From: Embleya hyalina
Lineage (GTDB): Bacteria; Actinomycetota; Actinomycetes; Streptomycetales; Streptomycetaceae
Direction: 5' to 3'
Length of the DNA stretch: 64,000 nt
Assembly (NCBI RefSeq): GCF_003967355.1
Contig: NZ_BIFH01000021.1
Span: 154,103 to 218,102, forward strand
Shown: piece after piece, positions 46,192 to 63,479 of the stretch
Layout of the letters: every line of letters starts with the position of its first letter
Numbering within the stretch: the first letter of the stretch is position 1
Notes under the pieces: generated by a model
The model's database searches: none
The model's input: only the letters and a program-made list of their open reading frames with translations
Told to the model about the DNA's origin: nothing
Position numbers and translations under genes: made by a program

Positions 46192-46323
46192 CCGGGTCCT
46201 CGGGGGCGCGACGGGCCCACCCGATCGGGTGGACGACGCTCTCCATCCGAGGTGGAGGCGGACGGAGTCGGCCGGTGGTGGAGGTCTACTCCTCCGCTCG
46301 GCGAAGATCGACCCGGCGGGTGG

Positions 46324-48396
46324 ATGACGCGCTTCGGGCCGATGATCAACGATCGCGACATGGCTGTTGCCGGCTCGATCGGTTCGAGCGCACCCGTGTT
46401 CCCCGACCTCTCCGACCTGGAGCGGTGGATCGCGGACGTGCTGGCCCGGGCGGTGCAGGCCAACGGGCCGGAATCGGGCGAGAGTTCGTTGGAACGCCTG
46501 TACCCCTCCCACGGCGAGGTGCGCGCGGCGCTGGCGGGCGCGCCACGGCCGGCGCCGGTGCTGATCACCGGCCCGCCGCTGCCCGCCCACCTGGCGCTGC
46601 CGCTGGCCCGGCGCGGCTTCGACCCGTTCGACCTCGCCGCGCTCGCGCTGATCCTCGCCCCCGAACTCGACCCGGCGTACGGCCGGGCGATCGCCTGGCT
46701 GCAACGCGACTCCGGGCAGCCGTACCCGACGCTCGACCTGCTCGCCCGGCTGTGCTGCGAGACCGGGGAGGACCGGGCGGCGGTCGCGGTACGGCTGTCC
46801 GCCGCCGGTCCGCTGCTCCGGTGCGGGCTGGTGGAACCGGTCGGCGGGCGCCCCGGACCCTCCTACGCGGGCGCCGTGCGGCCCTCGGCGGTGCTGCTGC
46901 GCCGGTTGTTCGCGATCAGCCGACTCGACGACGCGCTCGCGCCGTTCGCGACGGTGGACGCCTACACGCCGGTCGAGGCGCCCGACCCGATCGCCGCCGA
47001 AGCGCTGGTCGCCCGGCTGGTCGGCGACGCGCCCTCGCTCACCCACCTGTCCGGCGCGCCCGCCGCGACCTGCCTGGACGTCGCGTGGTGGAGCGTGGCG
47101 CGGGCCGGCCGGCGGGTGCTGACCGTGCGGCCCGAAGCGCTCGCCGATCCGGCCCTGCTGCCCGGCCTGGCCGCCGAGGCGCTGCTGCGCGAGGCCGTAC
47201 TCGTGGTGGACACGCACACCGGCGGCCCGCCCGACGCGGTGTGGGACCGGTTCACCTACGCCGTCGTGGTCGGCGGCCCCGACACCCTCGCGCCCACCGG
47301 GCCCGACGTGCCGGCCGAGCGGGTGGCCGCGCTGTCGGTCCGCCGCGCGGTCGGCGTGCCCGGCGGCCTGGCCACCGCCCTGGCCGCGCACGGCGTCGAG
47401 GTCGCGAGCACGCCGGGCGCCGACCCGCTGGCCGGCTGGACCCACCTGGCCGGGCCGGAGTTGCGGCACACCCTGGACGCGGTCGCCGCCCGGGCCCGCG
47501 GTCGAGCCGAGCCCGGCGCGCCGCTGCGCACCACCGCGACCGAGGTCGCCGACGTCGCGGCCCGGATCACCGGCGGCGAACTGGGCCGACTCGCCACCCG
47601 GTTGGGCACCTCCGACGACTGGTCCGCGCTGATCGTCCCCGACGACGTCGGCGCGCGGCTGCGCGACGTATGCGCCCATCTGAGCGCCCACCGCACGGTG
47701 CTCGACGCCCCCGGCTTCGCCGACCGGCCCGGCCTGGGCCGCGGTGTGTCGGTGCTGTTCGCCGGACCCAGCGGCACCGGCAAGACGCTCGCCGCGCGCC
47801 TGGTCGCGGGCCGGCTCGGGCTGCCGCTCTACCGGGTGGACCTGGCGTCGGTGGTGTCCAAGTACATCGGCGAGACCGAACAGAACCTGGACGCCGTGTT
47901 CACCGCCGCCGCGCGCACCGACGCCGTGCTGCTGTTCGACGAGTGCGACGCGCTGTTCGGCAAGCGCAGCGAGGTGCACGACGCGCGCGATCGCTACGCC
48001 AACCTCGAAGTGGCCTACCTGCTCCAGCGGTTGGAGGACCACGACGGGCTCGCGGTACTGGCCACCAACCTCCTGCACCACATGGACGACGCGTTCATCC
48101 GCCGGCTGACCTACTGCGTGCACTTCCCGTTCCCGGAGGCCGCCGAGCGGCGGCGGATCTGGCAGGGCGCCTGGCCGGCGGCGCTGCCCCGGGACGTGGA
48201 CGTCGACCCGGCCGAACTGGCCGAGCACTACCCGCTCTCCGGCGGCCACATCCACAACGTCGCGGTCGCGGCGGCGCACCTGGCCGCCGCCGAGGGGCGC
48301 GCGGTGGACCGGGCGGTGGTGCTCCGGGCGATGGAGCGCGAATACGACAAGATCGGCCCGTCCCCGCAGGCCCCCGCCACGATCGGGGCGCGGTGA
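46324..48396 (+). CDS. AAA+ ATPase of the contractile injection system
   Basis: A 690-residue protein. The N-terminal 430 residues are a variable helical region rich in Ala and Leu. The AAA+ core (about 440-665) has Walker A GPSGTGKT at 481-488, VVSKYIGETEQNLDAVF, Walker B LLFDECDALF (Asp539, Glu540), a sensor-1-like ATNLLHHMDDAF and the Arg-finger region FIRRLTYCVHFPFPEAAERRRIW. CIS loci usually encode one such ATPase (the Afp15/Pvc15 role), thought to assist assembly or particle disassembly. ATG 46324 is chosen; ATGs at 46342 and 46360 are possible. It is coupled to the next gene by TGATG. Confidence 0.84.
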   Translation: MTRFGPMINDRDMAVAGSIGSSAPVFPDLSDLERWIADVLARAVQANGPESGESSLERLYPSHGEVRAALAGAPRPAPVLITGPPLPAHLALPLARRGFDPFDLAALALILAPELDPAYGRAIAWLQRDSGQPYPTLDLLARLCCETGEDRAAVAVRLSAAGPLLRCGLVEPVGGRPGPSYAGAVRPSAVLLRRLFAISRLDDALAPFATVDAYTPVEAPDPIAAEALVARLVGDAPSLTHLSGAPAATCLDVAWWSVARAGRRVLTVRPEALADPALLPGLAAEALLREAVLVVDTHTGGPPDAVWDRFTYAVVVGGPDTLAPTGPDVPAERVAALSVRRAVGVPGGLATALAAHGVEVASTPGADPLAGWTHLAGPELRHTLDAVAARARGRAEPGAPLRTTATEVADVAARITGGELGRLATRLGTSDDWSALIVPDDVGARLRDVCAHLSAHRTVLDAPGFADRPGLGRGVSVLFAGPSGTGKTLAARLVAGRLGLPLYRVDLASVVSKYIGETEQNLDAVFTAAARTDAVLLFDECDALFGKRSEVHDARDRYANLEVAYLLQRLEDHDGLAVLATNLLHHMDDAFIRRLTYCVHFPFPEAAERRRIWQGAWPAALPRDVDVDPAELAEHYPLSGGHIHNVAVAAAHLAAAEGRAVDRAVVLRAMEREYDKIGPSPQAPATIGAR

Positions 48397-50888
48397 TGGC
48401 GGCGCCGACGAAGGCGGGGGACACCGCTTCGCACCTGCCGGCCGAGTTGGAGGCGCGCGCCGAACGGGCCCGGCCGCTGGACGCCGCGCTGCGCGGCTCG
48501 ATGGAGCGCTCGTTCGGCACGTCCCTGGGCGACGTGGTCGTGCACACCGACGCCGACGCGGCGGCGTCGGCCGAGCACCTCGACGCGAAGGCGTACGCGG
48601 TCGGCCGGCACGTCGTGTTCGGCCCCGGGCGCTACGACCCGCACTCGACCGCGGGCCGGGCGCTGATCGGCCACGAACTCGCGCATGTGGTGCAGCAGCG
48701 CCGCGGCGGCCCGCGGCCGGGGCCGCGCGGCGTGCACCCCTCGGGCACCGCGGCCGAAGGCGCCGCGCACACGGCGGGCGCCCGAGCCGCCGCCGGCCTG
48801 TCCGCCCCGGTCGCGGGCGGCACCGCGCCGGGCGTGTCCCGGGCGCCGAAGAACGAGGCGGAAGAGGAGGCCGAACGCGCCGAACTGCGGGAGAACCGCG
48901 CCGCGGCGATGGTCGCCTTGGGCGCCACCGAGGGCGTCGCGCTGGAGGTCACCGGCGCCGTGGACACCCTGATCGGCCTCGGCTACGGAGCACACGACGC
49001 GGGTCGCCTCGGCGTGCGCAAGGCGGCCTCGCTGCTCGGGCTGTCGGGCGACCAGACGACGGTGGTCCAGGCGTGGTACGAGGGGGCCTCCGGCGGGTTC
49101 GTCCTGGACGCCGTGCGTGACCGGGCCAAGGCGGCGGGGCTGGTCGACCCGTACACCGGCGTACCCGCGCTCTCGCCGGGGGTCACGAAGGCGGGCGACC
49201 TGACCGAGGCGTACTTCGACCGGGTCAGCGGCGGCCACGCGCCCGACGACGGCAGTCTGTTCAGCGACCGCGAGCTGACCCAGATCGCCGTGCAGCTCGG
49301 GGTGAAGACCATCCTCGCCTACACCGGAGGAGAGGAGGTGCTCCTCGCGCTCAAGGTGTTGGGCGTGGCGAGTTCGGTCGAGGCGATCCTGAACGCGATC
49401 AACGCCAATCCGGAGGGCTGGCCGTCCGATTCGCGGTTCTGGCTCCAGGTCGTCGGCGCCGTGCTCAACGTGGCCGGACTGGCCGCGTCGTCGGCGGGCA
49501 AACGATTGGCGGCGTTGCTGCTCGACGCGGCGCTGGCCACGCTGTCGACCGCTCCGGCCGTGCGGAAGTTGTGGGTGGACTGGAAGGGCGCGCACGGCCC
49601 GGACCGCGACGCGGTGCTCGAACAGGACCTCAAGGACGTGGTGCGGGCGCTGATCGCGGTGATGCACCAGATCCTGCTGCACGCCGCCGGCTACCGACGC
49701 TCGAAGGCACCGGGCGGGGGCGGTACGGAAGGCGGCGCCGGCCGCGAGCATGCCGGGCCGCCCGTGAGGCAGCCGCAGCCGGCCGCCGACGCGCATGCCG
49801 GCCCGCCGCCGGCGCCCGCGCACGCCGGTGCCGGGACGGCACCGGCCGGGGCGACCACGGCCGGCCCGGCGACACCCGCGCCGCCCGCCGCCGCGCCGGC
49901 GGCGGCGCCGAAGCCGGCCGGGAAGTCCGGTGGGAAATCGGGCGGCGTATCCGGCGGCGCGAAGGCGCCCGGCAGGAAATCGCCGGGCAGGCCCAAGACC
50001 GCGTCGGCGGACCCGAAACCCGCCCCGTCGACCACCGGACCGGCTCCGATCGAGCCCGCGCCCGGCACGGCCGCACCTGCGGAGGCGACGACGAGCGCCG
50101 CGAAGCCGACAGGCGCGAAGGCCACGACAAAGGCCCCGGCAGCCAAGACCCCCGGCCGCAAGGCGCCCGCACGAAAGGCACCCGCACGGAAGCCGGCCGG
50201 GAAGAAAGCCGCCGCGCGGAAGGCGACCCCGGAGAAGACCGCGGCGGAGCGCAAGACCGCCGCCGGCAGCGGCTCCGCCGAGGCCGGACGGACCGAGGGC
50301 ACCCCGGTCGAGCCGACCCGACGGGAGAGGCGGCAACTGGTCAAGGACGTTCGCGCCCGGGCCAAAGCGCTGCGGGCGGAGGCGCGGAAGGACCCGTCCG
50401 CCGTGGACCGGCTGCGCGATCTGTACGAGGGCCAACCCGACCACGTGCTCGGCGCGTTGAGCGACGACCCGGTGGCCGCGCAGGTCCGGGACCGCCGCCG
50501 GGCGCGGCAGCAGAAGGACGAACTCGCCAGGATCGACGCGAGCGACTTCCGCCCGCCGCACGAGGCCACGGTCCGCGTGCTCGACCCCGACGGGAGCGTC
50601 GTGCACAACGAGTCCCTGCGCAGCGGCGGCGTCACCCCCGAACAGCGTGCGGCACGCGGCCTGAACCGGGCCAACCAGGACAGTCACACCGAGGCCAAGG
50701 CGGTGACGCGGGTCCCGCTGACGGCCGGTCAGCGGATGTACATCACCGGCCAGTACGACCCGTGCGGATCCTGCCGGGCCGCCATGCAGGCGGCGGCCCT
50801 GCGCAGCGGCGGGCGGATCAACTACTGGTGGCCCGGCGGACCACCCGAAGGCATCTGGTTTCCGCTCGGCTCCGGCGGTGCGCGGTGA
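48396..50888 (+). CDS. DUF4157 - deaminase fusion, probable CIS cargo toxin
   Basis: An 830-residue modular protein. Residues 25-105 form a DUF4157 domain with the metalloprotease-like HELAH at 93-97 (GRALIGHELAHVVQQR), a domain repeatedly linked to injection-system cargo. A helical middle part (about 160-430) contains hydrophobic segments (303-330, 350-390). Residues 440-620 are an Ala/Pro/Lys-rich low-complexity linker resembling histone H1 tails. The C-terminal 190 residues end in a cytidine-deaminase-like domain: HTEAK (His764, Glu766) and PCGSC (Cys790, Cys793) are the zinc ligands and proton donor. Together these suggest a delivered, nucleotide- or nucleic-acid-deaminating effector. No immunity gene is evident. 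ATG 48396 overlaps the ATPase stop. Confidence 0.82.
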   Translation: MAAPTKAGDTASHLPAELEARAERARPLDAALRGSMERSFGTSLGDVVVHTDADAAASAEHLDAKAYAVGRHVVFGPGRYDPHSTAGRALIGHELAHVVQQRRGGPRPGPRGVHPSGTAAEGAAHTAGARAAAGLSAPVAGGTAPGVSRAPKNEAEEEAERAELRENRAAAMVALGATEGVALEVTGAVDTLIGLGYGAHDAGRLGVRKAASLLGLSGDQTTVVQAWYEGASGGFVLDAVRDRAKAAGLVDPYTGVPALSPGVTKAGDLTEAYFDRVSGGHAPDDGSLFSDRELTQIAVQLGVKTILAYTGGEEVLLALKVLGVASSVEAILNAINANPEGWPSDSRFWLQVVGAVLNVAGLAASSAGKRLAALLLDAALATLSTAPAVRKLWVDWKGAHGPDRDAVLEQDLKDVVRALIAVMHQILLHAAGYRRSKAPGGGGTEGGAGREHAGPPVRQPQPAADAHAGPPPAPAHAGAGTAPAGATTAGPATPAPPAAAPAAAPKPAGKSGGKSGGVSGGAKAPGRKSPGRPKTASADPKPAPSTTGPAPIEPAPGTAAPAEATTSAAKPTGAKATTKAPAAKTPGRKAPARKAPARKPAGKKAAARKATPEKTAAERKTAAGSGSAEAGRTEGTPVEPTRRERRQLVKDVRARAKALRAEARKDPSAVDRLRDLYEGQPDHVLGALSDDPVAAQVRDRRRARQQKDELARIDASDFRPPHEATVRVLDPDGSVVHNESLRSGGVTPEQRAARGLNRANQDSHTEAKAVTRVPLTAGQRMYITGQYDPCGSCRAAMQAAALRSGGRINYWWPGGPPEGIWFPLGSGGAR

Positions 50889-51796
50889 TCGACATCCTCG
50901 ACCTGATCATCCGCGAGACGCTGATCGCCGGCGTGCCCGGTCTGACCGGTGCCCGGATCGGTTTCCAGCCACCCGACGACGACTGGCGGCAGCGGGTGGG
51001 CGCGAGCCAGGGCGTCTGGGTCAACTGCGCGCTGGTCGATCTGCGCGAGGACCGGCACATGCGGCAGAACATCCGGCGGCGGATCACCACCGGCGCGGTC
51101 ACCGTGGAGCGGCCCGAGCCGGCGCGGATTCGCTGCCACTACCTGATCACCGCGTGGAACGCGGCCAAGGACAGCCCGCAGATGCCCGCGACCGAGCAGG
51201 AACACATGGTGCTCGGCGCGATCCTGGCCGTGCTCCTGCACGCCGACCCGCTGGTCGCCTCCGCCGTGCTGACCCCCGATCAACTGGCCTCTGTACCCGA
51301 GGTGTTGCGCGAGGCGGAACTGCCCGTCGAGGTGGTGCCGCCGGAAGGGTTCGGCAAACTCGCCGAGTTCTGGGGCACGGTCGGCCGGGCCACCTCGTGG
51401 CACCCCGCCGTGTACCTGATCGTCACCATGCCGGTCCCGGAGGCGGACCGGCGGATCGACGGCGTGGTGCACACCGTGCTCACCTCCTACCAGGGCACGC
51501 CGCCCGACGGGCCCGTCGAGCAACTGGCCGACGTGGGCGGACTGGTGCTCGACGCCACGGCCGGCCCGGGGATGCCGCCGGTGCCGGTGGCCGACGCCCG
51601 GGTCGTGCTGCTCGACGCGGCGGGCGGCGAGGCGGTCCGTGCCCGCAGCGGCGCCGACGGGCGCTTCGTGGTGGTCGACGTGCGGCCCGGCGCCTACACC
51701 GCGCTGGTCACCGCCGCCGGACTGCCGCCACCCGCGCCCACCCCCGTCCAGGTCCCCGGTTCCCCCGACGCGCTGATCGAACTGCGCTTCACCTGA
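50885..51796 (+). CDS. DUF4255 (Pvc16/Afp16-like) protein with carboxypeptidase-regulatory-like domain
   Basis: A 303-residue protein. The first 190 residues match DUF4255, the family of tube/sheath-terminating cap proteins in contractile injection systems: VIDILDLIIRETLIAG, RITTGAVTVERPEPARIRCHYLITAWN, EQEHMVLGAILAVLLHADPLV. Residues about 218-303 form an extra beta-sandwich like carboxypeptidase regulatory domains (VADARVVLLDAAGGEAVRARSGADGRFVVVDVRPGAYTALV). GTG 50885 overlaps the cargo stop. Expected function: capping the tail during assembly; the extra domain is an uncommon elaboration. Confidence 0.82.
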   Translation: MIDILDLIIRETLIAGVPGLTGARIGFQPPDDDWRQRVGASQGVWVNCALVDLREDRHMRQNIRRRITTGAVTVERPEPARIRCHYLITAWNAAKDSPQMPATEQEHMVLGAILAVLLHADPLVASAVLTPDQLASVPEVLREAELPVEVVPPEGFGKLAEFWGTVGRATSWHPAVYLIVTMPVPEADRRIDGVVHTVLTSYQGTPPDGPVEQLADVGGLVLDATAGPGMPPVPVADARVVLLDAAGGEAVRARSGADGRFVVVDVRPGAYTALVTAAGLPPPAPTPVQVPGSPDALIELRFT

Positions 51797-51817: not shown

Positions 51818-53785
51818 ATGGCCGTGCAGGTCTCGTACCCCGGCGTCTACATCGAAGAGACCGAGCCCGCCGCGCCCATCCAGGGCGTGTCGACCAGCGT
51901 CGCGGCGTTCATCGGCATCAGCGCGCAGGGGCCGATCGCCGAACCCACCCTGGTGACCAGCCCGGACGCGTTCACCGCGCTGTTCGGCCCGCCCGTCGAC
52001 GGCGGCGACGTGCCCTACTATCTGCCGCTCGCCGTGGACGGCTTCTTCCGCAACGGCGGCACCCAGTGCTTCGTGCTGCGCGTGGGCACCGCGACACCGG
52101 CCGGGATCGACCTGCCGGCGCGGGCGACGGGGGCGCCGGCCGCGGCCCGGGTGGTGGCCCGTCTCGACGGGCCCGACGGCGAGGGCGGTTCCGTGCGGAT
52201 CGCCGACTCCAGCGCGCTGGCCGCCGCGTTGACCGCGGCCGGCGCCGGTACCGACCTGCCCGTGGTCCGGGGCAGCGCGAGCATCACCGCCGTCGACGCC
52301 ACCCGGCGCGTGCTCACCGTGAACGCGGTCGACGGCCTGGCGGTGGGCGATCGGGTGGTGGTGGCCAAGGGCACCGATCGGCAGACGTCGCGGGTGACGT
52401 CGGTCCAGGCGCCGGACACGGTCGTGCTGGCGAGCGGCCTGTCGGGCACGGTCGACTTCGCCGGCGGCACCGTGACCGGTGACGATCTCGCCGCCGGGGA
52501 CACCGTGTTGCGGCTGACCGTGCCCGCCGCGATCGCGCTGCGCCCGCTGGTCCCGGTCGGCTCCTCCGTGCGGATCTCCGACGGCACCAACACCGAGTGG
52601 GGCATCGTCGCGGCGGTCTCCAACGACGCGATCACCCTGCGCAAGCCGCTCGCCAAGGCGTACCGGCTCACCGCGCCGACGCGGGTGGCCACCGCCGAGT
52701 TCGACCTCACCGTCACCGACCGCAACGGCCGGGCCGTCGGGTATCCGGGACTGTCCACCACCCCGTCGCATCCGCGCTGGTGGGGCGGGCCCGCGGTGAC
52801 GAGCGACTACCTGCGGATCGTGATCGCGGCCGACGCGCCGATCCCGGCGGGCGATCCACGCCCCAGGGCCGGGACGTACGCCCTCGCCGGCGCCGTGGCC
52901 GACGTGCCCGCCGGCTCCTGGGCCGACGTGGCGAACAAGATGCCCCAGCACCTGAACCTGCTCCGCCCGATCGACGAGATCAGCCTCGTACTCGCGCCGG
53001 GCTGCACCGACACCGGCGCACAGCGGGCGATCGTCGAGCACTGCGAGTCGTTGTACGACCGCTTCGCGATCCTGGACAGCCTGCCCGGCGTGGACGTGGT
53101 CACGGTCAAGGCCCAACGCGCCGACCTCACCGGCGCGTTGGACAAGGGATTCGCGGCGCTCTACTACCCGTGGATCCAACTCCGCGACCCCGCCAAGCAG
53201 GCGGTGGTCGTGCACCCGCCGTCCGGCCACCTGGCCGGGATCTACGCGCACACCGACGCCACCCGCGGCGTCCACAAGGCCCCGGCCAACGTCGGCATCG
53301 CGGGCGCGCTGGGCCTGGAACGGCGGCTGAGCGACGCGGATCAGGGCCTGCTCAACCCCGACGGGGTCAACGCGCTGCGCATCCTGCCCGGACGCGGATC
53401 GCCGGTGGTGTGGGGTGCGCGCACCACCGCGGGAGATCGCAATTGGCAGTACGTGAACGTGCGACGGTTGTTCCTCTACCTGGAGGAGTCGATCCAACTC
53501 GGGCTGCGCGGAGCGGTGTTCGAGCCGAACGACCTCGAACTGTGGGGCAAGCTCAAGCACACCCTCACCGAATTCCTCACCCGGGTCTGGCGCGACGGCG
53601 CGCTGTTCGGCGCCAAGGCCAAGGACGCCTTCTTCGTCCGCATCGACGAGGCGCTCAATCCGCCGAGCACCCGCAAACTCGGGCTGCTCCACATCGAGAT
53701 CGGCGTACAGCCGGTCTACCCGGCCGAGTTCATCGTGGTCCGGATCGGCATCTGGGACGGCGGCGCGGAGGTCAGCGAGCAGTAG
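51818..53785 (+). CDS. Contractile tail sheath protein
   Basis: A 655-residue sheath subunit. The N-terminus VQVSYPGVYIEETEPAAPIQGVSTSVAAFIGISAQGP is the typical sheath opening. Residues about 90-340 are a variable outer insertion, rich in beta strands. The C-terminal conserved part includes AALYYPWIQLRDPAKQAVVVHPPSGHLAGIYAHTDATRGVHKAPANVG, VWGARTTAGDRNWQYVNVRRLFLYLEESI (around residue 531) and the handshake strand at the end. Its contraction drives the tube. RBS GAGAGGA precedes ATG 51818. One sheath gene is visible in this locus. Confidence 0.94.
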   Translation: MAVQVSYPGVYIEETEPAAPIQGVSTSVAAFIGISAQGPIAEPTLVTSPDAFTALFGPPVDGGDVPYYLPLAVDGFFRNGGTQCFVLRVGTATPAGIDLPARATGAPAAARVVARLDGPDGEGGSVRIADSSALAAALTAAGAGTDLPVVRGSASITAVDATRRVLTVNAVDGLAVGDRVVVAKGTDRQTSRVTSVQAPDTVVLASGLSGTVDFAGGTVTGDDLAAGDTVLRLTVPAAIALRPLVPVGSSVRISDGTNTEWGIVAAVSNDAITLRKPLAKAYRLTAPTRVATAEFDLTVTDRNGRAVGYPGLSTTPSHPRWWGGPAVTSDYLRIVIAADAPIPAGDPRPRAGTYALAGAVADVPAGSWADVANKMPQHLNLLRPIDEISLVLAPGCTDTGAQRAIVEHCESLYDRFAILDSLPGVDVVTVKAQRADLTGALDKGFAALYYPWIQLRDPAKQAVVVHPPSGHLAGIYAHTDATRGVHKAPANVGIAGALGLERRLSDADQGLLNPDGVNALRILPGRGSPVVWGARTTAGDRNWQYVNVRRLFLYLEESIQLGLRGAVFEPNDLELWGKLKHTLTEFLTRVWRDGALFGAKAKDAFFVRIDEALNPPSTRKLGLLHIEIGVQPVYPAEFIVVRIGIWDGGAEVSEQ

Positions 53786-53864: not shown

Positions 53865-54302
53865 GTGAGCACGGGCGATATCCAGGACCCCTTTGTCAAT
53901 TTCAACTTCAAGGTCGAACTCGACGGGATCATCCGCGTCGGCTTCCACGAGGTGAGCGGCCTCGACGCGACGGTGGACGTGGTGGAGCACCGCGAGGGCG
54001 GCTGGAACATCACCCCCTACAAGTTCCCCGGTCAGGCCAAATTCGCCAATATCATGCTCAAGTGGGGCATGACCACCGACACCGAACTGTACGACTGGCA
54101 CCGGCAGATCGTCGAGGGCGACATCGTCCGCAAGAACGGCGCGGTGCTGCTCCTGGACCGGCGCGGCGTGGTCACCTCGCGCTGGAACTTCGTCCGCGCC
54201 TGGCCCACCAAGTACACCGCCCCGCCACTCACCGCCGAGTCCAACGACATCGCGATCGAGACCCTGGAACTGGTCCACGAGGGCCTGGAGCGGGTGCAGT
54301 GA
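53865..54302 (+). CDS. Tail tube protein (gp19/Hcp-like)
   Basis: A 145-residue tube subunit. DPFVNFNFKVELDGIIRVGFHEVSGLDATVDVVEHREGG, YKFPGQAKFANIMLKWGMTTDTELYDWHRQIVEG and ETLELVHEGLERV match phage-tail gp19/Afp1-like tube proteins, which stack in rings to form the inner tube. The GTG start at 53865 is preceded by GGAGGG. Its TGA overlaps the next GTG, coupling it to the chaperone gene. It is the only tube gene seen; many CIS loci carry more than one. Confidence 0.93.
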   Translation: MSTGDIQDPFVNFNFKVELDGIIRVGFHEVSGLDATVDVVEHREGGWNITPYKFPGQAKFANIMLKWGMTTDTELYDWHRQIVEGDIVRKNGAVLLLDRRGVVTSRWNFVRAWPTKYTAPPLTAESNDIAIETLELVHEGLERVQ

Positions 54303-54697
54303 CCATGTTGCGGATCGAACACGACTTCACCCTCCCGGTCGGACTCCTCGGCGACGACGGCACGTTGCACCGCGACGGCACGATGCGGCTGGCCACCGCC
54401 GCCGACGAGATCCTGCCGCTCGCCGACCCGCGCGTGCAGCGCAACCCGGCCTATCTGTCGGTGATCCTGCTCAGCCGGGTGGTCACCAGGGTGGGCGCGG
54501 TCGAGACGGTCACCCCGCGCACGATCGAGACGCTGTTCGCCGCCGATCTGGCCCACCTCCAGGACCTGTACAACCGGATCAACAGCGTGGACGAGCCGGA
54601 CTCGGCGACCGAGGGGTCCTGTCCGAACTGCGGCGAGGAGGTCCGTCCGGGCCACGAGCGCCTGGGGGGATCCGCGGATATCCGGTCGATCGGCTGA
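54299..54697 (+). CDS. Tail assembly chaperone-like protein (zero-frame product)
   Basis: A 132-residue protein just after the tube gene, the usual place for phage-type tail assembly chaperones. The sequence LPVGLLGDDGTLHRDGTMRLATAADEILPLADPRVQRNPAYLSVILLSRVVTRVGAVETVTPRTIETLFAADLAHLQDLYNRIN resembles gp41-like chaperones. A single CPNC motif lies at about residues 108-111. GTG 54299 overlaps the tube TGA (GTGA); ATG 54305 is possible. Near its end lies GGGGGGA (54664-54670) in the right frame for -1 slippage, which would replace the last 8 residues with a 56-residue DUF6760-like extension. Confidence 0.78.
   Translation: MTMLRIEHDFTLPVGLLGDDGTLHRDGTMRLATAADEILPLADPRVQRNPAYLSVILLSRVVTRVGAVETVTPRTIETLFAADLAHLQDLYNRINSVDEPDSATEGSCPNCGEEVRPGHERLGGSADIRSIG
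54664..54670 (+). promoter_or_regulatory. Putative -1 programmed frameshift heptamer GGGGGGA
   Basis: Read in the chaperone frame as G GGG GGA, this is an X XXY YYZ slippery heptamer. A -1 slip re-pairs both tRNAs on GGG codons and continues into the DUF6760-like frame, bypassing the TGA at 54695-54697. A downstream stimulatory structure is possible (GC-rich, palindromic GATATC nearby) but not demonstrated. Confidence 0.6.
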
Positions 54698-54840
54698 GGG
54701 AGGAGATCGCCTTCGTCGCCTACCACCTGCACTGGTCGCACGCCGAACTGATGGACCTCGACCACGCCGAGCGTCGCCGATGGGTGGAGCGGGTGTCGGC
54801 GATCAACCAGCGCCTCAACGAGGCGGCGGGCGGCGGTTGA
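54670..54840 (+). CDS. DUF6760-like frame, probably expressed only by -1 frameshift from the upstream chaperone gene
   Basis: Fifty-six codons ending at TGA 54838-54840: RGYPVDRLREEIAFVAYHLHW, HAELMDLDHAERRRWVERVSAINQRLNE. As I recall, the pattern YPxDRLxEEVAYVAYHxHW with a following RRRWVxE is that of DUF6760 proteins in actinobacterial CIS loci. No ATG, GTG or TTG exists in this frame upstream of the conserved part; the first ATG (54752) lies inside the domain. Either a -1 shift at 54664-54670 fuses it to the chaperone (total about 180 residues), or a CTG at 54694, overlapping the chaperone TGA, serves as start. The conserved YPVDRL before that CTG favours the frameshift. A single-base sequence error is the remaining alternative. 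Confidence 0.7.
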   Translation: MRGYPVDRLREEIAFVAYHLHWSHAELMDLDHAERRRWVERVSAINQRLNEAAGGG

Positions 54841-54956: not shown

Positions 54957-55718
54957 GTGATCGTCACGGGAGCGCGTCCGCCGTCGGCGGGGTGGCCGGT
55001 TCGGGCGGCGGCCTCCTCGATGCTTGCCGCCGTTCGTGCCCGGGTCGAGCCGGGCGCCGCGCGGGACCGGGCCAAGCGGGTCGAGGGGCGCGTGTCCGGG
55101 GCCGCGTTCGTGCTGCGGGTGGCGCCGCGTGCGCCGAGGCCCCCGAAGGCGCGGGAGATTCCCGTGCGGGTCGCGGACGTTCGGCGGTGTGCGCACGTGC
55201 GGCTCGATGTGCGGGTGAGCCTGCCGCCGATGGTGGCGCTCACGCGGGTCGAGCGGGTCGACGCGGGTGGGGTGGCCGGGTCCGGGGTGGTCGGCGGGCC
55301 GCCGGTACCGGTGTTGCGTACCGGGTCCGCCGGGGGCGGGGTGGTCGAACGGGCGCGTGCGACACGCCGGTTGTACGAGCGGGGGGCCGGGCACGGTCGG
55401 CGGATCGAGGAGCCGGGCGGCCGGCCGACCCCGACGTCGCGCGGCGCGGGACCCACCACGCCCGGGGCGGCGCCCTACGCACGGCCCCGGAGCGTGTTGA
55501 CGTTCGCCGCCCCCGCCCGACCCGAGCCCGCCCCGGCCGCCGCGCCCGGGTATTCGGCCGATCCGATCGCCCGGGACCGGGCCGCGCGGCCGGATCGCGC
55601 CGCCCCGGCCGCGCCCGCGCTCACCTCCGCGGATCTGCCGCGCCTGGTGGACGGCGTGGTGCGGGAGATCGATCGCCGGGTGCTCGCCCGCCAGGAGCGT
55701 CGGGGGTGGAGCCGATGA
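54957..55718 (+). CDS. CIS-associated Pro/Arg-rich protein of unknown function
   Basis: A 253-residue protein. Most of the chain (about residues 15-215) is rich in Ala, Arg, Pro and Gly with few hydrophobic blocks and is probably extended. The last 35 residues form an amphipathic helix, TSADLPRLVDGVVREIDRRVLARQERRGW, typical of the conserved C-terminus of a short structural protein between the chaperone and LysM genes in Streptomyces-type CIS loci. GGGAG precedes GTG 54957 by seven bases. Its stop overlaps the next ATG. The function is unknown; a linking role between tube and baseplate is speculation. Confidence 0.65.
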   Translation: MIVTGARPPSAGWPVRAAASSMLAAVRARVEPGAARDRAKRVEGRVSGAAFVLRVAPRAPRPPKAREIPVRVADVRRCAHVRLDVRVSLPPMVALTRVERVDAGGVAGSGVVGGPPVPVLRTGSAGGGVVERARATRRLYERGAGHGRRIEEPGGRPTPTSRGAGPTTPGAAPYARPRSVLTFAAPARPEPAPAAAPGYSADPIARDRAARPDRAAPAAPALTSADLPRLVDGVVREIDRRVLARQERRGWSR

Positions 55719-56413
55719 CGGTCATGGAACGTGCGACGATCACCGATTCCGTCACCGGCAAGGTCACCCGCGTGTTGTTCAACCCGGAGGACTACACGGT
55801 CGACCGGCAGACCACCTACGCCCAACTCCCGGTGCCCGGACTGTCCGCGCCGATCGTGCAGTTCGTGCACGGCAACGCGCAGACCCTGGAGATGGAACTG
55901 TTCCTCGACTCCCTGGAGGCGAACGACCAGGCGGGCGCGGGCAGCGACGTGCGGATCCTGGTGCGGCGCGTCGTCGACCTGATGAACATCGACCCCACGC
56001 TGCACGCCCCGCCGCCGCTGGTGTTCGCCTGGTCGAGTCTGACCTTCACCTGCGTACTGACCCGGGTCGCGCAGAAGTTCGTGATGTTCAAGCCGGACGG
56101 CACCCCGGTGCGGGCCCGACTGAGCGTCACCTTCAGCGAGTTCCGCAACGTGGACATGGAGGCGAAGGAGGTCAAGCGGCAGACCTCCGACTACACCAAG
56201 GCGCATACGGTCGTGGCCGGCGAGACGTTGCAACTGATCGCCTGGCGCGAGTACGGGTCCGCCTCCGCGTGGCGGCCGATCGCGCTGTACAACGGGCTGG
56301 ACGACCCGCGCGTATTGGCCGTCGGCGACACGCTGCACATCCCGCGCCTGCCGTACCGGGACCGGGGTACCGACGAGGTCTTCGACGCGCCGCCGCCGGA
56401 GGTGCCGGCATGA
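55715..56413 (+). CDS. LysM-domain baseplate protein (Afp7/gp53-like)
   Basis: A 232-residue baseplate component. Residues 1-160 form a tube-like domain (VTRVLFNPEDYTVDRQTTYAQLPVPGLSAPIVQFVHGNAQTLEMELFLD) that packs on the first tube ring. Residues 163-210 are a LysM module (AHTVVAGETLQLIAWREYGSASAWRPIALYNGLDDPRVLAVGDTLHIP), as in Afp7 and P2 gpX-type proteins. It overlaps both neighbours by 4 bp. It should sit between tube and hub and may also contact peptidoglycan. Confidence 0.9.
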   Translation: MTVMERATITDSVTGKVTRVLFNPEDYTVDRQTTYAQLPVPGLSAPIVQFVHGNAQTLEMELFLDSLEANDQAGAGSDVRILVRRVVDLMNIDPTLHAPPPLVFAWSSLTFTCVLTRVAQKFVMFKPDGTPVRARLSVTFSEFRNVDMEAKEVKRQTSDYTKAHTVVAGETLQLIAWREYGSASAWRPIALYNGLDDPRVLAVGDTLHIPRLPYRDRGTDEVFDAPPPEVPA

Positions 56414-57645: not shown

Positions 57646-57751
57646 GTGGGTGACGCGACTTGCCGCAGACCCGATCCGTCACCGACGACCGGCCGCGCCG
57701 TGCGCGGACCGGCCCGATGTTCCGACCGCTCGACCTCCCGGGAGGACCGGC

Positions 57752-58405
57752 ATGTTCGAACCGCTTTTCGACGCCCTCGACGACATCCACGAGTCGGACA
57801 GCCCCCGGGTGACCGGCGTGGCGCCCGCGACCGTGGTGGACAACCTCGACCTGACCGGGGCCGGGCGGGTGCAGATCCGGTACGCGTGGCTGCCGGGTGT
57901 CGAGCCGTGGGCGCGGGTGTGCGCGACGGTGGCGGGTGACGGGTCGGGCGTGTGGTTCATGCCGCAGCCCGACGACGAGGTCCTGGTCGCGTTCCGCAAC
58001 GGCGACGTGCGCGAGCCGTACGTGCTCGGCGGACTCTGGACGATGACCTCGCGCCCGCCCGCGGCGCTGCCCACCGACTCGATCACCAAGCGCATGATCC
58101 GCACCCCCGTGGGCCACGAGATCGCCATCGACGACCTGGTGCAGAAGCTCACGCTGACCCACACCCTGGGCCACTCGATCGAGATCGCCGCGGACGGGAT
58201 CACCCTGTCGGTGGCGGGCGGCGCGGCGAAGATCTCGCTGAGCGCGTCCGGCGCGGTGAGCATCACCGGCACCCGCTCGGTGGAGGTGACCGGCCTGGAT
58301 GTGAGCGTCAAGGCCGGCAACGGCCTGACGGCGAACGCGACTCGGGCGGACGTCCGGGCCGCCGCCACATGCAGCATCCAGGGCGCGCTCGTGAAGATCA
58401 ACTGA
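57752..58405 (+). CDS. VgrG/gp5-type baseplate spike
   Basis: A 217-residue spike. An OB-fold at about residues 35-105 (GAGRVQIRYAWLPGVEPWARVCATVAGDGSGVWFMPQPDDEVLVAFRNGDVREPYVLGGLW) matches phage_base_V/gp5. The C-terminal region (about 120-217) contains beta-helix-like repeats (ITLSVAGGAAKISLSASGAVSITGTRSVEVTGLDVSVKAG). GGGAGGA precedes ATG 57752. Together with the PAAR protein it forms the membrane-piercing tip. Confidence 0.9.
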   Translation: MFEPLFDALDDIHESDSPRVTGVAPATVVDNLDLTGAGRVQIRYAWLPGVEPWARVCATVAGDGSGVWFMPQPDDEVLVAFRNGDVREPYVLGGLWTMTSRPPAALPTDSITKRMIRTPVGHEIAIDDLVQKLTLTHTLGHSIEIAADGITLSVAGGAAKISLSASGAVSITGTRSVEVTGLDVSVKAGNGLTANATRADVRAAATCSIQGALVKIN

Positions 58406-58483
58406 CTCGCCGGACCGGGCCCGCGCGTGCGCGCGCCGTCGGATCCGAACGCACCCCGACCCACCACACCCGAGGAGGCAGCC

Positions 58484-58762
58484 GTGCCCGCAGCAGCGCG
58501 TGTCACCGACCCCACCGGTCACCCCGGCATGGTCGCGGGACCCGGCGTGGCCACCGTGCTGATCGGCGGCCTGCCCGCCGCCGTCCAGGGCGACATGCAC
58601 GCGTGCGCGTTCCCGCCGCCGGCCGCGCACCCGCCGTCGCCGTTCACCAAGGGCTCCGCGACGGTGCTCGTCGGCGGTCGCGGCGCGCTGCGGCAGGGCG
58701 ATCTCGCCGGCTGCGGTGCGCCCGTGGTGGCCGGCGCGCCGACCGTGCTGATCGGAGGCTGA
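58484..58762 (+). CDS. PAAR-domain spike tip protein
   Basis: A 92-residue PAAR protein, the sharpened cone on the spike. VTDPTGHPGMVAGPGVATVLIGGLPAAVQGDMHACAFPP, the PFTKGSATVLVGGRGALRQGD repeat and GCGAPVVAGAPTVLIGG contain the His/Cys metal ligands. GAGGAGG lies five bases before GTG 58484. No effector domain is fused to it. Confidence 0.92.
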   Translation: MPAAARVTDPTGHPGMVAGPGVATVLIGGLPAAVQGDMHACAFPPPAAHPPSPFTKGSATVLVGGRGALRQGDLAGCGAPVVAGAPTVLIGG

Positions 58763-58764
58763 CG

Positions 58765-59217
58765 GTGGCCGAACCGAGCGCTCCGCTGAATCCGGATCCC
58801 GCGCGGCGCACCCCCGACGACGCCGCCGTGCTGGGGCGGGGCTGGGCCGCGCCCGCGCACCTGGATCCGCTCGGCGAGGCGGCGCAGACGTCCGGGCCGG
58901 AGAAGGTCCGCCAGTCGGTGCTGCTGATCCTGGGCACCAGGCGTGGCGAACGTGTGATGCGCCCCGACTTCGGCGCGGGCCTGGAGGACCTGCTGTTCGA
59001 ACCGGTCACCGCGGCCACCGCCGCCGTGGTGCGGTTGCGGGTGGAACAGGGCCTGATCGCCTGGGAACCGCGGATCGACGTGCTCGGCGTCGAGGTGTCG
59101 GTGACCGACCGCGCGGCGGGACGCCTCGACGTGAGCATCGACTACCGGATCCGCGCCACCAACACCTTCTACAACCTCGTCTATCCGTTCCACCTGCACG
59201 AAGGGGCCGCCGGATGA
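58765..59217 (+). CDS. GPW/gp25-like baseplate wedge protein
   Basis: A 150-residue wedge protein. KVRQSVLLILGTRRGERVMRPDFGAGLEDLLFEPVTAATAAVVRLRVEQGLIAWEPRIDVLGVEV is the gp25 core, including the sheath-initiating strand and the conserved RPDFGxGLEDLLFEP. GTG 58765 follows the PAAR stop by two bases and overlaps the next gene by 4 bp. Confidence 0.93.
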   Translation: MAEPSAPLNPDPARRTPDDAAVLGRGWAAPAHLDPLGEAAQTSGPEKVRQSVLLILGTRRGERVMRPDFGAGLEDLLFEPVTAATAAVVRLRVEQGLIAWEPRIDVLGVEVSVTDRAAGRLDVSIDYRIRATNTFYNLVYPFHLHEGAAG

Positions 59218-62200
59218 GCTCGTCGCGTGGGCGGGGCGAGGTGGTGGCGGCTCTGCTGGCCGTGCGGAACGGGTGGGTGCCCGATTGGCATCCGACGCCG
59301 GGCGGGCCGTCGCTCGGGGTGGCGCACGGGCTCGGGGCGTTGCTGGCCGCGCTGGAGGAGCGACTCCTCGCGCTGCCCGACCGGCAACTCGCCGCGCTCC
59401 TGGACATGGTGGGGGTCTCCCTGCTGCCCGCGCAGGGTGCCGACACCACGGTGCTGCTGCAACCGCTGCCGGGCGTGCCCGACGCCCGGGTCACCGCCGG
59501 CTCGCGGCTCGGCGCCACCGTGCCCGGACAGGACGCGCCGCTCGTCTTCGAGACCCAGGAGACGGTGGCCCTGGCCGGCGCGCCGCTGGTCGAGGTCTGG
59601 AGCGTGGACCCGGGCGCGGACGCCGCCGCCGACCACTCCGCCGACGTACTGGCCCGCCGCCCGGTCACGCTGTTCACCGGACTGCGGCCCGCGGTACGGG
59701 AGTTGTACCTGGCGCACGGCACGCTGCTCGCGTTCGCGGGACGCGCCGTCGTCGAGGTGGCGATCGCCCTCGCCCGCCCCGCGTCGACCGCGCTGCGGGT
59801 CGGCTGGGCCTGGTGGGACGGCGCCGACTGGCGGCCGTTCGCGCCCTGGGGCGACGGCGACGACGCCTCCCGCGACGGTACCGCCGGACTGACCCGCTCG
59901 GGCACGGTGCGGCTCGTCGCCCCCTGCGCGACGGCCGTGACCACGACGGTCGACGGGATCGACGGCTACTGGATCCGGGCCCGACTCGACTCCACACTCT
60001 CGGCGCGACCCGGCTTCGTGGTACCCGAGTTCGCGCACATCCGGCTCGCCGCGGAGAGCACGCATGCCCGGATCGCGCTGTTCGCGAGTCCCGCGACGGG
60101 CGCCGGGACCACGGTGACCGTGCGCGCGCCGTACGGGACGACCGCGCCGCCGACGGTGACGCTGCATGTCGCGGACACCACCGCCGGGGTCAAGGAGGAC
60201 GTGGCCGGGCAGCCCGGCACGCCGCTCGCCGTGGCGGGTGGGCACGAGGGCCACACCGTACGGTTCGGCGTCACCGTGCCGCCGACCGCCGCCGACACCT
60301 TCACCGCCGGCACCGCCGCCCCGAAACCGGGCGTCGACTACTTCCCGCTCGACGACCCCGACGACCTCACCGCGTCGCTCGCCCTGGACACACCGCTGCA
60401 CCTGGACCTGACCCTGCGCGCGGGACTGGCCCCGGACAAGGCGGTCGCCGACGCGCAAGCCGTCGATCTCACCCGGGCGTTCACCCCGCTGGGCCCGGCT
60501 CCGGTGCGCGGCAGCGCGTTCCACGTCGCGTGCGACGCGGCCTTCGGCAAACCCGGCGCCCGGGTGACCGTGGTGGTCGGCCGACCGCGCACCGCGGCGG
60601 AGGAGGCCGACCAGCGCACCGGCGAACTGACCGGCGGCGTCCAGAACGCCAAGGAATTCCGGGACAAGACCGTCGCCGACATCCGCGCCGTGGCGACCAG
60701 ACTGGCCGCGCTCACCGCCGTCACCGGCGACCTCGGCCGGGCCGTCGTCTCGCCGCTGTCCGGCGAGGACCCGGTCGGCTGGTACACCGGGGTCAAGACA
60801 CACATCCGCGACGCGCTCACCGCGCTCGGCACCGCCGCGCAGACCGAACCCGGCCTGTTCGCGGGCGTCGGCAGCGCCCGCGACCACGTCAAGGCCGCGC
60901 AGACCGCGACCGACCCCGGCCCCGACCTCGCCGCCGCGCTGACCGCCCTCGGCGGCGCTCCGCGCGCCAGTGCCGCGCTGCTCCTGGCCACCGCCGACGT
61001 GGCGGCGCAACTGTCCGCCGGGGCAAGCGCGTTGGCCGCACCGCGGGCCGCCCTCGCCCAGGCCCTGGCCGGCGGTACCGATGCCCAAGTGGTCGCCGCA
61101 CACGGGCCGTTGGCGGGCGTACTCGGCACCGTGCTGGCCACGCCCACGCCCTACCTCGCGGACACGCCGCTGCCTTCCTTCCTCGCCGCCGACCCCGTCG
61201 CCTTCGTCGCCGACGTGACCGCCCGGATCGGCACGGCGAAGGCGGCCGTCGACACCCAGGTGCAAACGGCCCGCACGATCGCCACCGACCTGGAGAACCT
61301 GGCCCCCGAGGACCTGCTCAAGGCCGTCGCCGGCGCGCAGACCCCCAATCAGCTCACCGCCCCCGAGGTGACCTGGGAATACTTCGACGGCACCCGCTGG
61401 CGGGCGATCGGCGCCGCCGGCGCCCCCGCCGTACTCGCCCTGCAACGTTCGGGGGCACTGCACTTCACCGTGCCCGACGACTGGGCGAGCGCGAGCGTCA
61501 CCGGCGACGAACGCCGCTGGTTGCGCGCGAGGTTGGAACGCGGCAGCTTCTCGTTCCTGCGGCAGGTCAGCTGGACCGACAAGTCCGGCGTGCTCAACTT
61601 CCTGCCCGTGGTGGAGCCGCGCCCGCCGATCCTGGACCGGTTCGAGGTGTTCTACCGCCACCTCGCCGGACCGGACGACCCGGCCCACACGCTCGCGCTC
61701 GACGACCACACGCTCGCCGACCTGACCGCCGGCCTCGCCTTCCCCGGACCCGGCGCCACGCCGTTTCGACCGATGGCCGAGACGGCCCCGAGCCTCTACC
61801 TCGGCTTCGACGGCGAACTGCCCGCCGACCGCCTCGGGCTCTACGTCGAACCCGCCGACGAGGACCCCGACGCGGTACCGGTGCGGCCCACCTGGGAGGG
61901 CTACGACGGCACCGCGTGGGTGACGCTGGCCACCGACGACGGTACGGAGGGGCTGACCCGCACCGGCGTGATCGGCCTGCTGTGGCCCGGCACCTCCGGT
62001 GCGCCCGGCGCCCCCGTCGCGGGCGCCGCCGACCACACGGTGACCCTGCTCGGGCGCGGTGCCGCGGCCCGATTCGCCCCCGGCGACCGGCTGTTGCTCA
62101 CCGACCTGCGCGGCGGCGAACCGGTGACCGCGGCCGCCGCCGACGGCGAGACGCTGACCGTGCGCGACCGGCTCACCCGCGCCTTCGCCGGCGGCGAACT

Positions 62201-63479
62201 CCGCGACGCGCCACCGGCCCGATTCGGCACCCCCCGCACCTGGATCCGGGCCCGCTTCCCGGCCGAGGCCGACCCGCCGCAGGCGACGCTCACCGCGCTG
62301 GTCCCGGGCGGCGCGCGGGTGCGGCAGGTGCAGACGGTCACCGACGAACTGCTCGGCTCGGCCGACGGCAGCGCCGGACAGGTCTTCCAGGCCCTGCGGA
62401 TCCCGGTCCTGGACGGCGCCGTGGTCGAGGTACGCGAGCTGGACGGCGACCGGGCCGCCGTCGATCTGCCGCTGCTGCAACGGGAGTTGGGCGAGCGAGC
62501 GGCGGGCGCGCTGCGCCTGGTGAGTGACCCGCGCACCGGCCGGACCACCGAGGTGTGGGTGCGCTGGGACGAACTGCCCTCGCTCGGCCTGGCCGGGCCG
62601 GCCGACCGGGTGTACGTGTGCGACCACGCCACCGGACGCCTGCTGTTCGGCGGCGACGGCCACGGCCGGGTGCCGCCGGTGGGCGCGGACAACGTGCGGC
62701 TGCGCAGCTACCGCTCCGGCGGCGGCGTGGTCGGGAACGTACCGGCCGGCGCGATCACCCAGGCGATCAGCGCGGTCGCGGTCGGCGGGGTGGCCAATCC
62801 CCGTGGCGCGAGCGGCGGTACGGACGCGGAGCGATTCCCCGACGTGCTGCGTCGCGGACCGGCGCTGCTGCGGCATCGGCGGCTCGCGCTGACCGAGGCG
62901 GACGTGGCCGCGCTGGCCCGGGAGACGGTGCCGGCGATCGCGGCGGCCCGCGCGCTGGGCGCCCGGGATCGACACGGGCGGGTGCTTCCGGGCGTGGTCC
63001 GGCTCGTGGTGGTGCCGCGCGACGGGACACCCCGGCCGGAGCCGACGGGGGAGTTGTCGCGGCGGGTCCGGGACGCGGTGGGTGCGCGGATGCCGGCGGC
63101 GGCACGTCTGGTGGTCGAGGGGGCCCGCTATTTCCCGGTCGGTGTGGCCGCGACGGTGCGGCCGACGCGGGCCGGCGACGCGGGGCCGGTCAGGGGCGCG
63201 GTGCTCGCCGACCTGGCGCTGTTCCTGCATCCGCTGGACGGCGGGCCGGGCGGGACCGGGTGGCCGTTCGGGCGCGGCGTGTACCTGTCCGATCTGGCGC
63301 GGCGGCTGGAGGCGGTACCGGGGGTGGACGTGGTGACCTCGTTGGAGCTGACCGTGGGCGGTGTGCCGGCCGGGGACGTGGTTCCGGTCGATCCGGACGC
63401 GGTGGTGTGCGCGGGTCCGCTCGCGGTGCGGTTGGCCGGGCCGGCCGGCCGGTCCGCGGGTCCCGGAAGGGAGTACTGA
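59214..63479 (+). CDS. Large putative baseplate assembly protein (Afp11/gp6-like)
   Basis: A 1,421-residue baseplate J-type protein. The N-terminal helix ALLAALEERLLALPDRQLAALLDMVGVSLLPAQGA and repeated strand pairs such as WEYFDGTRWRAIG, TWEGYDGTAWVTLA and LTRTGVIGLLWPGTSG are typical of TIGR02243-like wedge proteins. The C-terminal 250 residues include LRSYRSGGGVVGNVPAGAITQAISAVAVGGVANPRGASGGTDAERFPDVLRRGPALLRHRRLALTEADVAALARE, the conserved gp47/gp6 ring element. It is large for the family, with additional beta domains from about residue 230 to 700. ATG overlaps the gp25-like gene. Confidence 0.85.
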   Translation: MSSSRGRGEVVAALLAVRNGWVPDWHPTPGGPSLGVAHGLGALLAALEERLLALPDRQLAALLDMVGVSLLPAQGADTTVLLQPLPGVPDARVTAGSRLGATVPGQDAPLVFETQETVALAGAPLVEVWSVDPGADAAADHSADVLARRPVTLFTGLRPAVRELYLAHGTLLAFAGRAVVEVAIALARPASTALRVGWAWWDGADWRPFAPWGDGDDASRDGTAGLTRSGTVRLVAPCATAVTTTVDGIDGYWIRARLDSTLSARPGFVVPEFAHIRLAAESTHARIALFASPATGAGTTVTVRAPYGTTAPPTVTLHVADTTAGVKEDVAGQPGTPLAVAGGHEGHTVRFGVTVPPTAADTFTAGTAAPKPGVDYFPLDDPDDLTASLALDTPLHLDLTLRAGLAPDKAVADAQAVDLTRAFTPLGPAPVRGSAFHVACDAAFGKPGARVTVVVGRPRTAAEEADQRTGELTGGVQNAKEFRDKTVADIRAVATRLAALTAVTGDLGRAVVSPLSGEDPVGWYTGVKTHIRDALTALGTAAQTEPGLFAGVGSARDHVKAAQTATDPGPDLAAALTALGGAPRASAALLLATADVAAQLSAGASALAAPRAALAQALAGGTDAQVVAAHGPLAGVLGTVLATPTPYLADTPLPSFLAADPVAFVADVTARIGTAKAAVDTQVQTARTIATDLENLAPEDLLKAVAGAQTPNQLTAPEVTWEYFDGTRWRAIGAAGAPAVLALQRSGALHFTVPDDWASASVTGDERRWLRARLERGSFSFLRQVSWTDKSGVLNFLPVVEPRPPILDRFEVFYRHLAGPDDPAHTLALDDHTLADLTAGLAFPGPGATPFRPMAETAPSLYLGFDGELPADRLGLYVEPADEDPDAVPVRPTWEGYDGTAWVTLATDDGTEGLTRTGVIGLLWPGTSGAPGAPVAGAADHTVTLLGRGAAARFAPGDRLLLTDLRGGEPVTAAAADGETLTVRDRLTRAFAGGELRDAPPARFGTPRTWIRARFPAEADPPQATLTALVPGGARVRQVQTVTDELLGSADGSAGQVFQALRIPVLDGAVVEVRELDGDRAAVDLPLLQRELGERAAGALRLVSDPRTGRTTEVWVRWDELPSLGLAGPADRVYVCDHATGRLLFGGDGHGRVPPVGADNVRLRSYRSGGGVVGNVPAGAITQAISAVAVGGVANPRGASGGTDAERFPDVLRRGPALLRHRRLALTEADVAALARETVPAIAAARALGARDRHGRVLPGVVRLVVVPRDGTPRPEPTGELSRRVRDAVGARMPAAARLVVEGARYFPVGVAATVRPTRAGDAGPVRGAVLADLALFLHPLDGGPGGTGWPFGRGVYLSDLARRLEAVPGVDVVTSLELTVGGVPAGDVVPVDPDAVVCAGPLAVRLAGPAGRSAGPGREY

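Follow-up and report, generated by a model that had tools for sequence, protein, structure and literature searches.

In phage lambda, the -1 frameshift between the tail assembly chaperone genes G and T takes place at the heptamer GGGAAAG. The chaperone pair of T4-like phages, a two-part chaperone of a contractile tail, is reportedly made without frameshifting. Lambda gpG and gpGT are made at a ratio of 30:1 (PMC5009743), and in P2, whose tail is contractile, a -1 frameshift at TTTTTTG fuses two chaperone open reading frames (ORFs) into E+E' (PMC3091744). In the approximately 1000 annotated actinophage chaperone frameshifts of the SEA-PHAGES set analyzed with PRFect, GGGGGAA is the sole sequence of the 'fivetwo' motif (PMC10885494), and corynephage phi16 has been proposed to frameshift at GGGGGAA (PMC5506516). 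According to a 2021 review, one chromosomal -1 case has been reported from archaea so far, Saccharolobus fucA1, next to halovirus cases (PMC8211752). In the 64,000-nucleotide stretch of Embleya hyalina analyzed here (contig NZ_BIFH01000021.1; the window), the tail assembly chaperone gene of a contractile injection system (CIS) is overlapped in the -1 frame by a second frame encoding the domain DUF6760, and the sequence comparisons below make it highly probable that -1 programmed frameshifting produces a phage-type chaperone together with a chaperone–DUF6760 fusion in such systems.

Compared with lambda G/GT, the window encodes a cellular injection machine instead of a phage, its extension domain DUF6760 is different, and no tape measure was identified in it; haloarchaeal loci in our survey use GGGAAAN, the lambda type of heptamer. 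The actinophage chaperones agree with the Streptomyces-type loci in heptamer and register (GGGGGAA in 98/178 of the slip loci defined below), although theirs are phage genes and the CIS loci are cell-encoded. Saccharolobus fucA1 is likewise a -1 frameshift in an archaeal chromosome but lies in an enzyme gene. Searching phage records by tblastn gave no match to DUF6760 (E 0.01) or to a related chaperone (E 0.001), the viral relatives of DUF6760 were two IMG/VR loci only, and at E 1 the PDB yielded no relative. Streptomyces clusters (Casu 2023) and haloarchaeal CIS clusters are reported to be without a typical tape measure, and the passages of Streptomyces and haloarchaeal CIS papers available to us do not mention 'frameshift'; a literature search, with subscription journals outside its scope, gave no report of frameshifting in CIS chaperones among the papers listed.

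The chaperone–DUF6760 junction in the window

Four features that mark a G/GT-type chaperone are present in the window, namely chaperone homology of the ORF, a position directly after the tube gene, a second ORF in the -1 relation that is open through an in-register heptamer, and the lack of a start of its own in the latter. Judged by its sequence, the device has the testable features of the G/GT family except for an identified tape measure gene. The junction consists of the following elements:

54305..54697, + strand: tail assembly chaperone, the 0-frame product of 130 aa with a CPNCG zinc-ribbon-like end (PHROG phrog_508, E 8.5e-9)
54664..54670, + strand: slippery heptamer G GGG GGA, conserved in three further sequences (L008, L009, L211)
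54671..54840, + strand: -1 frame extension with DUF6760 (PF20546 match at 54688-54825), without ATG, GTG or TTG before the core
54695..54697, + strand: 0-frame stop TGA, 24 nt past the heptamer (in relatives usually 2-3 codons from the slip)

By ORF reading of the window, the best start of the chaperone is ATG 54305 and its stop is TGA 54695-54697; the start at 54299 proposed in the initial annotation is a GTG inside the tube stop, and ATG 54305 is likelier. The label 'tail assembly chaperone' of phrog_508 is also matched by 28/31 aligned chaperone homologues. The chaperone codons CTG(54662) GGG GGA set the register X XXY YYZ, with GGG in the P-site and GGA in the A-site, both of which re-pair in the -1 frame as GGG GGG; the coordinates and codon register of the exact heptamer first noticed at this place thus agree with our reading. 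The string GGGGGGA itself is not rare, with 5 copies on the two strands of the 64-kb window. An open -1 frame extends over 54073-54840, and its first and only ATG (54751) falls within the conserved DUF6760 core, in line with the earlier description of a frame open through the heptamer and startless before DUF6760. The segment previously called DUF6760-like matches PF20546 with E 1.9e-16 and 60.3 bits against a Pfam gathering cut-off of 27, and the virtual frameshift product is 178 aa long, where about 180 residues had been expected.

According to the proposed mechanism, most ribosomes would stop at 54695-54697 and release the 130-aa chaperone (gpG-like), and a minority would slip by -1 at G GGG GGA and read on to 54838, giving the 178-aa chaperone–DUF6760 fusion (gpGT-like). 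By analogy with lambda, the short form might wrap around a partner, either tape-measure-like or a cargo, and the DUF6760 tail of the long form might bring in tube subunits; how often ribosomes slip would set the ratio of the two forms. The sequences show the anatomy of the junction, the conserved frame, register and motif, a -1 frame under purifying selection and, in the relatives only, a stem-loop conserved downstream; that slipping takes place, how frequent it is and what either product does are inferred.

Conservation of the slip motif among DUF6760 loci

DUF6760 was present in 34/81 relatives and 23/396 genomes of the phylum, and in three other phyla it occurred in 28/292, 16/294 and 26/301 genomes of sets with a cyanobacterial, a Methanophagales and a chloroflexotal centre, respectively. 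Further relatives were the best 80 of 582 and are not a random sample. From 210 loci, 208 were anchored by the DUF6760 profile (L053 and L185 were dropped), and 194 were distinct once 14 identical junctions had been removed. Slip loci were defined by an in-register motif within the -1 overlap and a 0-frame stop at most 12 codons away; phylum labels were assigned by hand from record titles for L054-L133, and the other set genomes took the phylum of the centre genome of their set. Seven of 16 plasmid records (L211-L217) were read by eye, outside the 194. The weak DUF6760 match of L053 (382-1414), one of the two dropped loci, adjoins a chaperone-like ORF with CxxC in an overlapping frame, an arrangement that resembles T4-like tails.

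The -1 overlap contains a slip motif in register at 178/194 distinct loci, including 78/87 from Actinomycetota, 37/38 from Chloroflexota, 31/34 from Cyanobacteria, 15/16 from Archaea and 12/14 from Proteobacteria (Pseudomonadota); the remainder come one each from four other phyla and a viral contig. The motif is GGGGGNN in 169 slip loci and GGGAAAN in 9, the commoner heptamers being GGGGGAA (98), GGGGGAG (34), GGGGGGG (23) and GGGGGGA (12) and the rarer ones GGGAAAT (5), GGGAAAG (2), GGGAAAC (2), GGGGGGC (1) and GGGGGCT (1). Embleya has GGGGGGA and the Streptomyces type GGGGGAA, and in 8/15 archaeal slip loci GGGAAAN stands instead of GGGGG with the -1 relation kept. The distance from motif to domain is identical in 165/178 slip loci, and in 162 the 0-frame stop is no more than three codons away. 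Upstream in the chaperone ORFs of the 178 loci, in-register GGGGG was found at 15/19,582 codons, as compared with 169/178 junctions in this set, which was pre-selected for a slip motif (178/194 with any motif when unselected). All seven plasmid loci read by eye have the in-register motif, and 4/7 have no start after it.

The initial annotation had suggested that actinobacterial CIS may keep the phage -1 device and that its elements be compared across Streptomyces-type loci. Sequence supports the suggestion, with a spread wider than had been guessed: the G-run, the -1 relation and the register are conserved (178/194) far beyond the Streptomyces type, whereas the absence of a start is not conserved in most Streptomyces-type loci. 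One locus outside the slip tally, L209 of Chloroflexota (748-1653), is a natural one-frame fusion of 301 aa after the tube gene, which shows that chaperone and DUF6760 belong in one protein. This frame has duplicated chaperone-like halves and a DUF6760-like end.

Five-G and GGGAAAN runs are short for polymerase slippage. Transcriptional slippage on the G-run, which would give mRNAs with seven Gs and an identical protein outcome, could draw on the homopolymer run, but it is very unlikely in view of the 98/178 sites that are GGGGGAA, with five Gs, and the 9 that are GGGAAAN.

CTG GGG GGA TC and the -1 relation are common to four Embleya sequences (L001, the window; L008/L054; L009; L211), and since the G count is the same in all of them a miscounted G is not the explanation. 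Seven Gs in a simple fused ORF, which had been named beforehand as a result that would overturn the prediction, were not seen in any of the four. A sequencing or assembly error that hid such an ORF would be conceivable for a homopolymer in a 73% G+C genome; given these four sequences and the -1 relation in 178/194 loci, its probability is negligible.

Over the 46 codons of the DUF6760 frame, three Embleya pairs differ by 6 synonymous (S) and 1 nonsynonymous (N), 5 S and 0 N, and 6 S and 1 N codon changes. The few N relative to S changes indicate that the -1 frame is under purifying selection in Embleya and that, although it has no start, it is maintained for the protein it encodes. The window genome has three DUF6760 loci (L001, L002 and L003, on contigs C21, C25 and C53) with three junction types, GGGGGGA without a start, GGGGGAA with GTG and GGGGGAA with ATG.

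Downstream stem-loop and start codons

In most GGGGG loci, a hairpin begins approximately 5 nt past the heptamer in one of two registers, whereas P2-like sites are reported to have no downstream hairpin. Pairing is between GGCTACC.CCCTC and GAGG.GGTAGCC in the 80 loci (75 distinct) of the GYP type and between ACGTACGCGAC and GTCGCGTACGT, at an offset of five nucleotides from the GYP register, in the 73 loci (54 distinct) of the TYA type; these groups omit 12 of the 165 loci at -29. The paired fraction is 0.884 in GYP vs 0.661 (maximum 0.688) in 200 synonymous shuffles and 0.897 vs 0.747 (maximum 0.771) in TYA. Fold energy reaches z < -2 against synonymous shuffles in 29/31 cyanobacterial, 9/12 proteobacterial, 25/37 chloroflexotal, 7/14 archaeal and 44/78 actinobacterial loci (L177 was left out of this and the anti-Shine-Dalgarno shuffle tests). 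Cells changed on both sides numbered 35 vs 12.3 and 16 vs 9.2 in shuffles of alignments of 78 and 57 distinct sequences, respectively (0/500 each), and in the 57-sequence alignment pairs with both-side change and pair types also exceeded shuffles, weakly (30 and 15 of 500). In alignment A3 the slippery G-run (columns 1-5) can pair with a conserved downstream CCCCC (columns 18-22), and a switch between this pairing and the stem-loop is conceivable.

The GGGAAAN archaeal loci as a group have no stem-loop (z < -2 in 1/8). Perhaps the stem-loop matters less where the heptamer is a full XXXYYYZ; L004 and many Chloroflexota, which have both, break a strict rule. An internal Shine-Dalgarno sequence was considered as a further stimulator, since in Proteobacteria, Archaea and Cyanobacteria the mean anti-Shine-Dalgarno energy dips 8-12 nt before the slip (some of these means are spoiled by unpaired placeholders); it was dropped with only 0/78, 2/37, 1/31, 0/14 and 0/12 loci beating synonymous shuffles at 5%.

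No ATG, GTG or TTG lies between slip and core in 85/178 slip loci, and 55/178 have no start anywhere in the open -1 frame before the core. A post-slip start is missing in 6/78 actinobacterial, 26/37 chloroflexotal, 28/31 cyanobacterial, 9/15 archaeal, 11/12 proteobacterial and 5/5 other slip loci. RefSeq annotates DUF6760 as a separate gene wherever a start can be had, as the initial annotation had anticipated. In Nostoc sp. UHCC 0926 (plasmid pn3, L216, 1492-1662) the RefSeq DUF6760 CDS begins at ATA, probably forced by the missing start. That CDS speaks for a non-standard initiation codon, which would be ATC in the window and ATA in Nostoc; such initiation is most improbable because such starts are rare, the annotated one looks forced by the absence of alternatives, and the motif and stem-loop would stay unexplained.

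A number of observations weigh against frameshifting, or against the breadth we give it. The loci are related, so that locus counts are not independent, and 16/194 loci fail the slip tally, among them seven deep actinobacterial loci (L044, L045, L047, L048, L049, L051, L052) that have ATG or GTG and no slip motif; none of the seven has z < -2, and L047 pairs to 0.82 in one register. The other exceptions include L038, which lacks both a start and any of these heptamers and yet has a perfect stem, L086 without a G-run, and L184 with GGGGAAA and ATG; by sequence reading, L095 and L114 carry GGGAAAC and L115, L163 and L166 carry GGGGGAA/GAG, the stop being further off in all five. In the 78-sequence covariation test, two of five measures, pairs with both-side change and pair types, fail to beat shuffles (239 and 365 of 500). 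For the GYP alignment, RNAalifold favours a G-run/C-run helix, which shows no covariation. The anti-Shine-Dalgarno-like peak upstream of the slip is no better than synonymous shuffles (3/172 loci at or below 5%). The window and its genus have neither the stem-loop (54671..54735, + strand; z +1.37; 0.55 and 0.58 paired) nor the early 0-frame stop, and in the pair L001 and L009 the chaperone, with 6 N and 4 S codon changes, is less constrained. ATG, GTG or TTG follows the slip in 72/78 actinobacterial slip loci, mostly as a GTG that shares bases with the stop (GTGA). Immediately before TGA, Actinomycetota have TCG in 63 cases vs TCC in 3, compared with 133 vs 74 elsewhere in the ORFs, as if the GTG start were favoured, or inherited.

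The last two observations, together with the separate RefSeq gene and the seven deep loci that have their own starts and no motif, favour translational coupling, in which ribosomes would restart at the overlapping NTG after TGA with the G-run as Shine-Dalgarno sequence and make DUF6760 as a separate protein. Coupling in this form could not operate in the window genus or in the 85/178 slip loci that have no ATG, GTG or TTG, and it does not explain the conserved I/V codon before the NTG, the archaeal GGGAAAN, a stem-loop whose 5' end falls on the supposed start codon, or the choice of Glu codon at the slip. In the Streptomyces-type junction, stop and GTG overlap in CTG GGG GAA TCG TGA C, and the A-site Glu codon is GAA in 71/71 actinobacterial GGGGGA[AG] sites vs 77/624 Glu codons in the same ORFs. 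GAA or GAG is silent in the 0 frame; GAA completes GGGGGAA and gives the first -1 codon ATC (Ile) before the GTG. Its last base is irrelevant to a GTG start and is nevertheless fixed, which counts against coupled initiation as the whole story. Coupling as the general account thus appears unlikely, and coupled initiation may add to or replace slipping in Actinomycetota, where both routes are possible. A conserved start for DUF6760, another result that the initial annotation would have taken as refuting, is observed in part, a start being present in those 72/78 actinobacterial slip loci and absent from the window genus and most loci outside Actinomycetota.

Loss of the stem-loop and early stop in Embleya could also mean that this locus is decaying, its start lost and DUF6760 no longer made there though relatives make it, and one of the three congeners searched (G003) gave no DUF6760 match. 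Against decay, the Embleya DUF6760 frame is almost without amino-acid changes, the heptamer is improved to a full XXXYYYZ and the remaining CIS genes are still recognised by Pfam, so that it seems quite unlikely.

Significance and the surrounding cluster

Returning to frameshifting as the preferred explanation, the sequences support it well and point to a recoding cassette that CIS of bacteria and archaea appear to share and that would act as G/GT does in phages, the cassette being defined as a G-run heptamer, a stop within 2-3 codons and a 7-12 bp stem-loop in one of two registers. Beyond that, we regard it as evenly balanced whether DUF6760 is mainly frameshift-made, the -1 cassette being an old part of CIS that travelled with them through bacterial phyla and into archaea. 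If so, the ratio of short to long chaperone would set tube building around cargo in systems without a typical tape measure, as in Streptomyces and haloarchaea.

Frameshifting at these junctions would connect CIS with phage tails, where frameshifting has its best known use, suggest a likely role for DUF6760 and account for its annotation as a separate gene with odd starts. It also suggests that CIS reported without a typical tape measure still use the chaperone pair that in phages acts on the tape measure. If true, the archaeal cassettes would join the one archaeal -1 case that the 2021 review (PMC8211752) names as shown by experiment, and provide archaeal chromosomal -1 sites to test, and tractable hosts for such tests exist in Streptomyces coelicolor, Anabaena and Halogeometricum.

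The cluster around the junction is identified as a chromosomally encoded CIS by Pfam matches to sheath, tube, CIS_tube/LysM, spike, PAAR, gp25, AAA ATPase and Pvc16-like proteins, encoded as follows:

46252..48396, + strand: AAA+ ATPase (PF00004, E 5.7e-23)
50882..51796, + strand: Pvc16_N-type protein (PF14065)
51818..53785, + strand: contractile sheath protein (PF04984, PF17482)
53865..54302, + strand: inner tube protein (gp19-like), directly 5' of the chaperone (PF06841, E 1e-45)
55715..56413, + strand: CIS_tube/LysM protein (PF19266, PF01476)
57749..59217, + strand: spike (Phage_base_V), PAAR and gp25-like baseplate genes (PF04717, PF05488, PF04965)

The ORF next after the chaperone and DUF6760 (54960-55715), in the tape-measure position, and the large ORF of the cluster at 59214-63479 have no Pfam match at E 0.01. 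Between the AAA+ ATPase and Pvc16_N-type genes, the + strand at 48402-50885 encodes an eCIS_core (DUF4157) protein (PF13699, E 1.4e-29) with a C-terminal Pput_2613-like deaminase domain (PF14427, E 5.6e-22), which by its domains looks like a CIS cargo.
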